This document shows, in pieces, positions 23,733 through 26,753 of a stretch of 51,948 nucleotides of DNA. Position numbers and translations under genes: made by a program. The DNA is from Acidobacteriota bacterium (GTDB lineage: Bacteria > Acidobacteriota > Terriglobia > Bryobacterales > Bryobacteraceae): positions 1 to 51,948 of the forward strand of contig JAPKZA010000286.1 of the NCBI GenBank assembly GCA_026394015.1. Reading direction: 5' to 3'. The notes under the pieces were generated by a model. That model had not been told where the DNA came from. It did no database searches and saw only the letters and a program-made list of their open reading frames with translations. Position 1 is the first letter of the stretch. Every line of letters begins with the position of its first letter.

Positions 23733-24233
23733 ATGGCGCTTCTTCCCCGTACCCCGGCCCACCCTCTCCGCACCGCCGGCAAGGTCATGCTCTTCAGTGG
23801 CGTCTTCTTTGTGGGCGTCGCCATGCTCGGCGCCTGGAAGCCGTACTACCAACTCCAGCAGGCTCCCCGCGTCCGCGCCAAAGTGCTCAAGAACGACATC
23901 GGCTACAAAACCGCCACCGGCTGGGCCTTCCAACTCCAGCTCAGTTACCTCTCCGACATCGGCGAACAACGTACCCAGCTCACGACGCCCGTCCCCGCCG
24001 CCACCGAAGACGAAGCCCGCCGCAAGTATCGCGGCGCCGCTATCGTCGTCGGTCAAGAGTACGACTTCCCCGTCGACCCCGATGACCCCACCCGCGTCCT
24101 CCCCTTCCTCGGCTACAACTGGCGCACCTTCGGGCAGTACCTCATCAGCGCCATCGGCGGGTTCATCGCCTTCGGCCTCGGCATGTACTTAGCCAAACAG
24201 GGCCAGGCCCTCCAGAAGAAGCCCCAGATCTAG
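23733..24233 (+). CDS. DUF3592-like membrane protein
   Basis: Starting at ATG 23733 the product has 166 residues. A membrane helix near the N-terminus (AGKVMLFSGVFFVGVAMLGA) and one near the C-terminus (YLISAIGGFIAFGLGMYLA) enclose a beta-rich domain of about 80 residues (RVRAKVLKNDIGYKTATGWA on to YDFPVDPDDPTRVLPF). This two-helix arrangement with a conserved D-P-x-x-P-x-x segment is the DUF3592 pattern; function unknown. Longer frames upstream overlap the flotillin-like gene and lack support. The stop shares CTAG with dut. Confidence 0.75.
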   Translation: MALLPRTPAHPLRTAGKVMLFSGVFFVGVAMLGAWKPYYQLQQAPRVRAKVLKNDIGYKTATGWAFQLQLSYLSDIGEQRTQLTTPVPAATEDEARRKYRGAAIVVGQEYDFPVDPDDPTRVLPFLGYNWRTFGQYLISAIGGFIAFGLGMYLAKQGQALQKKPQI

Positions 24234-24664
24234 CGACCCGAACTCCCGAAGCCACCCTCGCCCCGTACGGTCTCGCTCAAGTCCGTCTCCACCAACTCCA
24301 CGCCCTCGTATCGAGCAATCACCATCTGCGCAATCCGGTCGCCCTTGGCAATCGCGTACGCCGCCTTCCCCAAGTTCAACAAAATCACCTTCACCTCGCC
24401 CCGATACCCCGGATCAATCGTCCCCGGGCTATTCGGTACCGTAATAGCGTGCTTAAACGCCAGGCCGCTCCGCGGCCGCACCTGCGCCTCATACCCTGGC
24501 GGCAGCTCGATCGATAGCCCGGTCGCCACCGCCTGCGGAACCCCCGGCTCCAGCACCGCATCGACTACCGAGCACAAATCCATCCCCGCGTCCTCCAGGG
24601 GACCATGGGCATAAGCGGGCAGAACCGCATCGGGAACAAGTCGTCGAACCTTAAGTTGCATCAT
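24230..24664 (-). CDS. dut: Deoxyuridine 5'-triphosphate nucleotidohydrolase (dUTPase)
   Basis: A homotrimer-type dUTPase of 144 residues that hydrolyses dUTP to dUMP and pyrophosphate, keeping uracil out of DNA and feeding thymidylate synthesis. All five motifs are present in order: DAGMDLCS, RPRSGLAFKH, PGTIDPGYRGEVKV with the catalytic Asp, GDRIAQMVI, and the C-terminal RGEGGFGSSGR that closes over the substrate. Start is ATG 24664 or 24661 (ATGATG). It diverges from thyX, the next enzyme in dTMP synthesis, with only 15 bases between start codons, a functionally sensible pair. The stop is in a CTAG shared with the DUF3592 gene. Confidence 0.95.
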   Translation of the reverse strand: MMQLKVRRLVPDAVLPAYAHGPLEDAGMDLCSVVDAVLEPGVPQAVATGLSIELPPGYEAQVRPRSGLAFKHAITVPNSPGTIDPGYRGEVKVILLNLGKAAYAIAKGDRIAQMVIARYEGVELVETDLSETVRGEGGFGSSGR

Positions 24665-24679
24665 AATGAAGTATTCAGT

Positions 24680-26085
24680 ATGCCAGCCCCTCCCCCGGAA
24701 CGCCGCATTCTTTCCGTCGCGCCCCTCGCCCCGGAAAAGAGCGCGTACGCCCTCGCCCGCTACAGCCGCTCGGCTGACTCCATCGTCGACTCCCTCGCCT
24801 GGGTGAAAACGCACGACTCCTCCAAGTTCCTCGAAAGCTTCTATTTCCAATACGGCCACGCCTCCATCGCCGACCTCGGCCATCTCACCTTCTGCCTGGA
24901 AGGCATCTCCGAACTCGCCGCCGCCGAAGTGGAAGACGAACAGCTCTGGGACGGCCAAGCCAAATCCTCCCGCTATCAGGACTTCGGCAAAACCGGCTTT
25001 GTCGTCCCCCCCGAATGCAACGACGTCCAGCGAACCCAATTCCTCGCCGCCGGCGAGACCCTCCTCGCCGCCTACCGCCTCGTTCACGACGCCGCCTTCG
25101 CCCATCTCGCCGCCCAACTCCCCCGCCCGGAGGAGATGAAGCCCGACGCCTACCAACGCAACATCGCCGCCCGCGCCTTCGACGTCGCTCGCTACCTCCT
25201 CTTCTGGGCCGTCCCCACCAACGTCGGCCAAGTCACCAGCATCCGCACCCTCGAAAAGCAGATCCGCCGCCTGAAGGCCTCGCCCTACGCCGAACTCCGC
25301 GCCATCGGGGCCGAAATCGCCGCCGCCTGCGCCGCCCCCCCCGCCTGCCGCTGGGACGACTCCCAAACCGAGCCCCTAGCCCCCACCCTCGCCAAATACT
25401 GCGATCGGACCTCCGCCTCTGGGCGCAGCAGAACCTCCCCCCCGCCCGGTCTTCGGAAGTCCCCGACGTCGATCTCTTCAAACCCTCCGAAACCGCCGCC
25501 GAAATCGCCGCCACCCTTCTCTACCCCGTCACCAACTGGCCCTTCCGCACCCTCTACGAATGGGCCGTCGACCATCCCGCCCTCCGCCAGGAAGTCATCG
25601 ATACCGCCGTCCGCTCCCGCACGAAACACGACGACCTTCTCCGTGGCTTCCGCGGTGGCCTCTACTGCTACGACCTCGTCATGGATGTCGGTGCCTACCG
25701 CGACTTCCATCGCCACCGCCGCTGCCAGCAGTTCCGCCAGGACTACAGCGGCCAACTGGGCTACGAAACCCCGCAAGTCATCACCCAGGCCGGCCTCACC
25801 GTCGAATACGCCGCGGCCATGGACCATGCCCTCGCCACCATGCAACTCCTCCCGAGCCCGGCGAACGAATACCTCCTCCCCTTCGGAGCCCGCAGCCGGT
25901 TCCTCTTCAAAATGGATTTCGCCGAAGCGGAATACATCTGCCGCGTCCGCAGCGGCGTCAAAGGCCACTTCAGCTACCGTTCCATCGCCTGGCAGATGAA
26001 AGAAGCCATGGAGCGCCTTGAACCCGAACTCGGCCGTCTCCTTTCCGGCACCCCCCCATGGATCGAAGACCCCCTCAAGCGCTAG
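24680..26085 (+). pseudogene. thyX: Two-module ThyX-like FAD-dependent thymidylate synthase, frame broken once
   Basis: The N-terminal half (from ATG 24680) reads FYFQYGHASIADLGHLTFCL, then the SSRYQDF end of a ThyX motif. The C-terminal half, in another frame, has the flavin/dUMP signature as RHRRCQQFRQDYS and a ThyX-like tail (EYICRVRSGVKGHFSYRS). Each half looks like one ThyX unit, so the full protein would be about 468 residues, roughly twice a normal ThyX. The frames join near 25408: the first ends KYCDR and the second continues DLRLWAQQN, so one G missing from CGGGAC explains the break. Everything else is intact, so a sequencing or assembly error, or a very recent mutation, is as likely as a dead gene. 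The signature spacing is longer than the usual RHRx7S. Confidence 0.75.
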
Positions 26086-26753
26086 CCCTTCTCCTGCTGG
26101 CTTTTCCCATTCTCGCCCGCGACGAGAAGGCCCTCCACGCCCAATGGGTCTTCCATTCCGACGCCATCAACTGCGCCGACCCCGCCCGCGCCGACAAACG
26201 TTGGAGCCCCACGGCCATCCCGGACACGTCCCCCGGCTGCTACCGCAAACGCTTCACCGTCACAGACGGAAGCCGCTTCACACTCGAGTTCGACGGCACC
26301 CCGCCCGCCGAGGTCTTCGTGAACGGCCAACTCCTAGCCCCGCCCTACGACCTCCCCATCAAGCTTAACCAGGAAGTCCTCCTCGCCATCATCGCGCCCA
26401 CCGGCCTCTCCACCCCCATCCGCCTCGTCAAAGATTCGCCCCCCGCCGCGGCCGTCACTTTCAAAGCCGGCACCCTCCGCCTCACCGTGCCGCCCGGCCC
26501 CTTCCCCGCCGACCGCACCGGCTTCGCCGTCGTCTCCGCCAACCGCAACGTACCCCTCACCTGGTCCGTCCGCGGCCAAGCCCGTCTCGTCGGCCCCACC
26601 GCCTTCGGTTCCGTCAACATGGTCCGCTCCAATGGCAACGCCGGCAAAATCACCGTCACCGCCACCACCGCCGACGGCGAATCCGCCTCTCTCGATCTCT
26701 GGTCGACCGCCGTGCCTCTCGGCAATAGTTGGCTCCGTGAACCTTCCCGCTAA
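26058..26753 (+). CDS. Exported protein with a GH2-like sugar-binding/jelly-roll domain
   Basis: The 231-residue protein has a hydrophobic leader (ALALLLLAFPILA) and then a beta-sandwich (about 28-130). WSPTAIPDTSPGCYRKRFTV, then RFTLEFDGTPPAEVFVNGQL, is the N-terminal jelly-roll pattern of glycoside hydrolase family 2. An Ig-like segment (about 150-225, ending ITVTATTADGESASLDLW) follows. The catalytic barrel of GH2 enzymes is missing, so this is an orphan binding module or a family remnant kept as a gene. ATG 26058 lies inside the last 28 bases of thyX. It ends just before the recA promoter. Function not assignable. Confidence 0.6.
   Translation: MDRRPPQALALLLLAFPILARDEKALHAQWVFHSDAINCADPARADKRWSPTAIPDTSPGCYRKRFTVTDGSRFTLEFDGTPPAEVFVNGQLLAPPYDLPIKLNQEVLLAIIAPTGLSTPIRLVKDSPPAAAVTFKAGTLRLTVPPGPFPADRTGFAVVSANRNVPLTWSVRGQARLVGPTAFGSVNMVRSNGNAGKITVTATTADGESASLDLWSTAVPLGNSWLREPSR

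Follow-up and report, generated by a model that had tools for sequence, protein, structure and literature searches.

A double ThyX gene of Acidobacteriota: a frame break and the distribution of active-site residues between two fused domains

Thymidylate synthesis is essential, and in other bacteria ThyX, the flavin-dependent thymidylate synthase, serves as a drug target. The solved ThyX structures revealed one active site that is built by three subunits, as described in the active-site passages of PMC6514825 (M. tuberculosis numbering). According to these passages dUMP is held by Arg95 and Arg199 of subunit A and by Arg87, Ser105 and Arg107 of subunit C, which also provides the lid Tyr108, whereas FAD is held by the RHR motif of subunit A and by Ser71 and Arg190 of subunit B. 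A multi-subunit site is likewise described in the passages of PMC3498832, where Gln75 and Arg182 belong to one monomer and Ser88 to a different one. In the following we use T. maritima numbers; the assignment of the M. tuberculosis residues to R78, R174, T55, R165, S88, R90 and Y91 of T. maritima was made in this analysis.

A 'duplicated ThyX' was reported in Chloroflexi by Valas and Bourne (2009), who called it uncharacterised (PMC3224940). The relevant passages of that paper contain neither residues nor a mechanism nor reciprocal loss, and the proteins described here are likened to it by description alone. In the open-licence PubMed Central literature that we searched the duplication was mentioned in PMC3224940 only, and no description of reciprocal loss in a double ThyX was found. 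Thus the duplication itself is already in print, and the element that appears to be new is the reciprocal residue pattern. The two properties named for duplicated ThyX, two domains in one gene and a genome that lacks ThyA, are found in the lineage studied here, the window's own frame being broken. In a COG table ThyX is listed for 6 of 6 Acidobacteria and ThyA for 0 of 6 (PMC5954106, as far as its table is concerned).

Gene layout and family assignment

The window, i.e. the whole stretch of 51,948 nucleotides that was analysed, is contig C289 of a 7.9 Mb assembly consisting of 574 contigs (97.4% complete). The double ThyX gene and its surroundings have the following features:

24230..24664, minus strand: dut-like gene, divergent, directly upstream of double ThyX (translation judged by eye, and the naming of the sequence-only reading)
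24680..25405, plus strand: N-half of double ThyX (P0001), in the frame of ATG 24680; Thy1 match of 56.1 bits
24857..24859, plus strand: His of GHAS in the N-half (residue alignment), which we take to be the equivalent of T. maritima H53
24965..24976, plus strand: SSRY in the N-half, equivalent of S88-x-R90-Y91 (residue alignment)
25190..25192, plus strand: Arg of DVARYLL in the N-half, equivalent of R147 (residue alignment)
25335..25342, plus strand: eight consecutive C, read in frame as GCC CCC CCC GCC; the run is not conserved among relatives (DNA alignment)
25405..25406, plus strand: break, 28 nt absent relative to the nearest intact relative, -1 frame change (DNA alignment)
25406..26085, plus strand: C-half of double ThyX (P0002), in the -1 frame, stop codon TAG 26083-26085; Thy1 match of 40.9 bits
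25711..25719, plus strand: RHR in the C-half, equivalent of R78-H79-R80 (residue alignment)
25948..25950, plus strand: Arg of CRVRSG in the C-half, equivalent of R174 (residue alignment)

Both halves score above the Pfam Thy1 (PF02511) cut-off of 24.8 bits and the dut-like gene lies divergently upstream, which bears out an earlier reading of the sequence alone (the sequence-only reading) that had recognized two ThyX-like modules adjoining dut. The same reading had correctly noted a partial signature in the first half, where SSRY is present without RHR. The dut product dUTPase makes dUMP, which is used by ThyX. If read without a shift, the frame of ATG 24680 stays open to a stop codon ending at 25999. 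An ORF downstream (26058-26753) begins within the 3' end of thyX, the overlap being 28 nt.

The closest intact relative is L015, which has the same sequence as the named locus L034 and is 89% identical to the window at the DNA level. The L015 protein matched Pfam Thy1 with 95 bits in two stretches. Its score with the NCBIfam thyX equivalog TIGR02170 (cut-off 87.9 bits) was 32.5 bits; P0001 scored 22.9 bits, and P0002 gave no match. The equivalog cut-off was passed by L005, also a double ThyX, with 107.9 bits. In a search by sequence alone the sole match was M. tuberculosis ThyX (E 0.26). For the intact L034 protein AlphaFold2 gave a model of good confidence (mean pLDDT 84.2, 49 sequences), in which residues 8-243 resembled 3gwc_D (Z 10.3, rmsd 2.8, 167 aligned), and residues 271-467 resembled 4gtf (Z 8.8, rmsd 2.6, 138 aligned). 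Among the 50 entries listed by the structure search the first one that is not of ThyX type appeared at Z 4.8, and the best Foldseek match was 3gwc_E (E 6.6e-4). By this model both halves are predicted to have the ThyX fold.

Each half thus shares the predicted fold and the Thy1 profile with single-domain ThyX/FDTS (PF02511, TIGR02170; T. maritima TM0449, M. tuberculosis ThyX 3gwc), and most of the active-site residues of the single-domain enzyme are present in double ThyX if the two halves are combined. Unlike single-domain ThyX, the double protein has two domains per chain, neither with the whole RHR...S-x-R-Y, and a score below the equivalog cut-off, as seen with L015. The one-domain signature (RHR and, a few residues on, S-x-R-Y) is satisfied only by both halves together: the N-half has no RHR, and the C-half has no S-x-R at the aligned place. 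The 'longer RHR-to-S spacing' noted for the second half did not stand up as a motif: a literal HRHR is present in 77 of 80 named relatives (the best 80 of 354), and among these 77 the residue at that S is variable. RHR-X9-S was rejected as a motif: S, T, A, N, D, E, H or R occupies the last position among the relatives listed.

Double ThyX is the only thymidylate synthase found in the window's genome. No second Thy1 locus or intact thyX copy was found in this assembly, and a search for thyA elsewhere in the genome, a check suggested with the sequence-only reading, returned no match at 97.4% completeness. DHFR was found in none of 8 genus genomes, the window's own included; genomes with single-domain ThyX are alike in having neither thyA nor DHFR matches. 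A thyA family match was present in 4 of 61 genomes, with whole-family coverage in G054 only. Weak partial PF00303 (thyA) matches of about 120 positions were seen in open frames of 386-507 aa at G033:C289:890-1264, G036:C58:24514-24915 and G034:C152:686-1081. G049 and G053 (about 93% completeness) had neither a Thy1 nor a thyA match.

The break between the halves

The DNA alignment of the break region comprised the window, eight intact relatives and one further broken gene, that of G001. Compared with L015/L034, the linker between the halves is 28 nt short in the window, the gap lying between 25405 and 25406; the missing stretch is also present in the other seven intact relatives aligned. Since 28 leaves 1 modulo 3, the break mimics the loss of one base. 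The sequence-only reading had placed one missing G at about 25408; the frame break between the halves is real in the sequence, but it consists of 28 nt, and a single-base error is ruled out as its cause by the gap in the alignment. G001 has a different deletion, of 43 nt, further upstream in the linker. In both broken genomes the frame is shifted in the same sense, although the deletions differ in place and length.

Among 61 genomes searched with Thy1, including the window's own, 54 had a match and 52 had two adjacent matches, a recurrence beyond chance. The fused organisation, which had been called unusual, is thus the norm for the relatives covered here. Both halves lie in a single frame in 50 of the 52 genomes with two matches, the exceptions being the window's genome and G001; relatives with two separate genes, which would have argued against the sequence-only reading, are not what the search revealed. 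All 80 named loci obtained in the related-locus search were in frame, but these were the best-scoring 80 of 354, a sample biased towards intact genes. Nearly all of them are labelled as uncultured Acidobacteriota, many as Bryobacterales/Bryobacteraceae, and one as Acidimicrobiia.

The dN/dS ratio between the window (G000) and L034 was 0.036 in half 1 and 0.084 in half 2. For G001 the values were 0.040 and 0.033 against L035, and 0.104 and 0.070 against L038 (halves 1 and 2), and four pairs of intact relatives gave 0.089 to 0.178 in half 1 and 0.027 to 0.239 in half 2. Both halves of the window's gene are under purifying selection. As selection is relaxed in neither half, the 28-nt gap appears to be recent or not real.

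To obtain a baseline for frame breaks, the genes of the window's flanks were compared with G008 and G017. Against G008, 3 of 33 genes were flagged as broken and thyX alone was retained after inspection; the discarded flags were an ORF of 45 to 53% identity that overlaps a better-matching gene, and a G008 ORF that was also split in the G008-to-G017 control. Against G017, 2 of 38 were flagged and again thyX alone was retained, the other one overlapping an opposite-strand ORF with 86% identity. On the G001 contig (28.7 kb) the two comparisons flagged 4 of 24 and 3 of 24 genes. After alignment two genes were kept there, thyX and a further one that has a 32-nt gap, and the flags discarded were one at a short gap just beyond a stop codon and one that was intergenic. 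The control comparisons flagged 0 of 37 (G017 to G008) and 2 of 32 (G008 to G017). The gap in the second G001 gene (L119, G001:C36, about 25084-25115) is out of frame; the window, G008 and G017 all contain the stretch. With two genes interrupted by small out-of-frame gaps, an assembly artefact is plausible for G001; for the window we infer an artefact from one gap.

The 28-nt loss is probably no working feature; most likely it arose in assembly or by a very recent mutation. Of these two we somewhat favour the assembly error, and we place a programmed slip or a separate start of the C-half far below both. A real, recent loss of function in a cell that survives by thymidine salvage is conceivable but rather doubtful. 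In its favour, thyX is the sole break retained in the flanks against G008 and G017, where the local assembly otherwise looks clean, and thymidine kinase (PF00265) is encoded in G000 (E 2.1e-49), and the same holds for each of the 8 genus genomes tested; the latter point says little, because intact relatives carry tdk too. A loss of function is at odds with the dN/dS values, which show relaxed selection in neither half, and with the finding of no second thymidylate synthase in the genome, of which about 3% may be missing.

It is very unlikely that the halves are joined by a programmed -1 frameshift or produced as two chains that assemble in trans. Both reading frames are open over the overlap, the shift has the same sense in both broken genomes, a C CCC CCC heptamer is located at 25336, upstream of the break, and with two chains the active site would in any case form between the halves. 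Yet the deletions of the window and G001 are unlike in place and length, and the heptamer at 25336 disappears with the G001 deletion and shows no conservation among intact relatives. The only other such heptamer from 25000 to 25405, at 25006, is shorter by one C in G001 and in most aligned relatives. The relatives thus contain no conserved slippery site at the shift, which disfavours the programmed slip that the sequence-only reading had listed as an option. As to a separate start, the -1 frame between 25000 and 25709 has ATG 25015 and ATG 25681 as its only ATG/GTG/TTG codons, besides five CTG. ATG 25015 is not preceded by a Shine-Dalgarno-like sequence (judged by eye), and ATG 25681 falls within the C-half. 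Unless it is real, the window's frame break is of little import.

Active-site residues of the two halves

Active-site residues were tabulated in 41 double proteins (9 from this order, 10 from another family of the class and 22 others of the class or phylum) and in 12 single-domain proteins. The halves were defined by S-x-R-Y followed at least 100 residues later by RHR, so that the presence of each motif in its own half is partly by construction; this bias spares the absences from the opposite half and the R147, R174 and T55 columns. One of 42 candidates was dropped from the double set (L139, a single-domain ThyX with an insert). The single-domain set was selected by RHR...S-x-R-Y/F, which retained 12 of the 13 proteins fetched. 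The one dropped, L147 (G087:C1:53733-54732), is a single-domain ThyX with KHR replacing RHR. Seven of eight phage and plasmid proteins were added, giving a table of 48. The protein left out, L179 (Paenibacillus urinalis plasmid, 704-2290), is double ThyX-like with LLRHNRK (RHN) at the place expected for RHR, and may be inactive or a variant.

In single-domain ThyX R78, H79, R80, S88, R90, Y91, R147 and R174 were present in 12 of 12 proteins, in one chain each. In the double proteins S88, R90, Y91 and R147 were each found in 41/41 N-halves, and R78 in 0/41. Conversely, R78, H79, R80 and R174 were each found in 41/41 C-halves, with S88 in 2, R90 in 1 and R147 in none. The 48-protein table had the same appearance: S88, R90, R147 and S/T55 were present in 48/48 N-halves and R78 in 0/48, whereas R78 and R174 were present in 48/48 C-halves, S88 in 2, R90 in 1, R147 in 0 and S/T55 in 1. 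Y91 is not clearly lost from the C-halves, 32/48 of which have Y or F (31/41 without the phage and plasmid proteins), and R174 is still Arg in 28/48 N-halves (25/41 without them). R165 occurs in 30/48 N-halves and 12/48 C-halves. The position of the dUMP-binding Arg87 is Arg in 21/48 N-halves and 0/48 C-halves; members of this order and of the next family have E or L there. Columns near the lost residues were hard to align. The sequence comparison suggests that each half lost a different part of the active site and that this part is retained in the partner half. As to whether the N-half lost its active site, a question posed with the sequence-only reading, the RHR part is absent, but S88, R90 and R147 are kept and it is the C-half that lost those.

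We propose that one old duplication fused two flavin-dependent thymidylate synthase domains, and that each then lost residues kept by the other. The C-half would play the role of subunit A, with RHR holding FAD and an Arg holding dUMP from the A side. The N-half would take the roles of subunits C and B, supplying Ser-x-Arg-Tyr and other nucleotide-side residues; it retains most of the C set, and the B set less strictly (S/T55 in 48/48, R165 in 30/48). R147 fits the N/C split, but the passages of PMC6514825 and PMC3498832 assign it no subunit role. As the retained sets, R147 aside, stem from different subunits of one site, we infer a dimer of fused chains. Two such chains would come together in a pseudo-tetramer that has two composite active sites rather than four, these taking A from the C-halves and B and C from the N-halves, and the remaining two sites would be dead. 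The quaternary arrangement, the number of sites and the activity of double ThyX are proposed here from sequence comparison.

We consider it probable that the gene encodes a double ThyX with composite sites that arose by one duplication, and that the window's 28-nt break is an artefact or very recent. This view draws on homology, on the fold predicted for either half, on the reciprocal loss of residues, on purifying selection and on a tree compatible with one duplication (see below). Against composite sites speaks Arg87 of the C set, which is present in only 21/48 N-halves and has been lost from this order and from the next family. Many duplicated enzymes end with one catalytic copy, the other serving as scaffold or regulator, and the ThyX-like fold predicted for each half would be compatible with such an outcome. 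Nevertheless catalysis by one half, without composite sites, seems unlikely, because the full signature is in neither half and the set of residues retained by each half hardly varies among 41 Acidobacteriota, five phage and two Actinomycetota plasmid proteins. The protein might also have ceased to be a thymidylate synthase and acquired another function, as the score of L015, far under the thyX equivalog cut-off (32.5 vs 87.9 bits), might indicate. This we regard as highly improbable: genomes that lack thyA offer no candidate besides double ThyX (see the thyA counts above), DHFR was found in none of the 8 genus genomes, the neighbouring gene is dut-like, and the double protein L005 does pass that cut-off. 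If composite sites do exist in double ThyX, an active site naturally split over fused copies would reveal which subunit supplies which residue, and single-site mutants would offer a natural way to probe the three-subunit site model.

Origin and spread

A tree was built from 48 N-halves, 48 C-halves and 12 single domains. It united the N-halves in one clade (99/87) and placed the C-halves on one side of a branch (97/80). The groups held when the motif columns were removed (SH-aLRT 89 for the N-halves and 73 for the C-halves). Some very long branches and the drop of C-half support to 73 call for caution, and the tree may be described as compatible with one duplication.

Double ThyX is common in the phylum. 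In a survey of Acidobacteriota Thy1 was found in 178 of 247 genomes, and 126 of the 178 had two matches (counted by hand from the table); a few two-match genomes are not double domains, such as G105 (two contigs) and G157 (an interrupted single domain).

Among phage records 16 had a match, one of which covers at least 80% of the query, and a double ThyX match was found in three plasmids. The phage and plasmid doubles were 22 to 37% identical over the match, among those listed. Seven of eight such proteins show the same residue pattern as the bacterial doubles; half order and reciprocal loss are shared by those of Tunturi_5 (XOB77493.1), BONAISHI (AXH71010.1), Euzebya (WP_164711104.1) and Miltoncostaea (WP_217924789.1). 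They are very divergent from the bacterial form, and some are annotated only as hypothetical protein. In Tunturiibacter phage Tunturi_5 (L172) the double ThyX gene, whose product is 37% identical over 97% of the bacterial protein, lies beside a dCMP deaminase gene. Two hypothetical proteins, of Vibrio phage MS32 (L174, 2872-4257) and a Microcoleus phage (L176, 2821-4332), are double ThyX whose N-half has S-T-R-Y or S-T-R-F and whose C-half has RHR. Recent exchange with phage was rejected, the best phage match being just 37% identical.

On balance we are inclined to see in double ThyX an ancient thymidylate synthase class of its own, whose active sites would be obligately shared. It would have arisen by one duplication, after which the N-half lost the subunit-A set and the C-half much of the subunit-C set, so that a dimer with two composite sites remained; it occurs in Acidobacteriota, Actinomycetota plasmids and large phages. 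Searches with a one-chain ThyX motif or the thyX equivalog under-call it in a large phylum and in phages.

The interrupted protein of G157 (L139, G157:C1:4376400-4379400) is a single-domain ThyX whose motif is split just past KHRIAC by about 400 residues. Judged by eye, the insert is intein-like with an HNH endonuclease. G250, which has two partial Thy1 matches, may resemble it.
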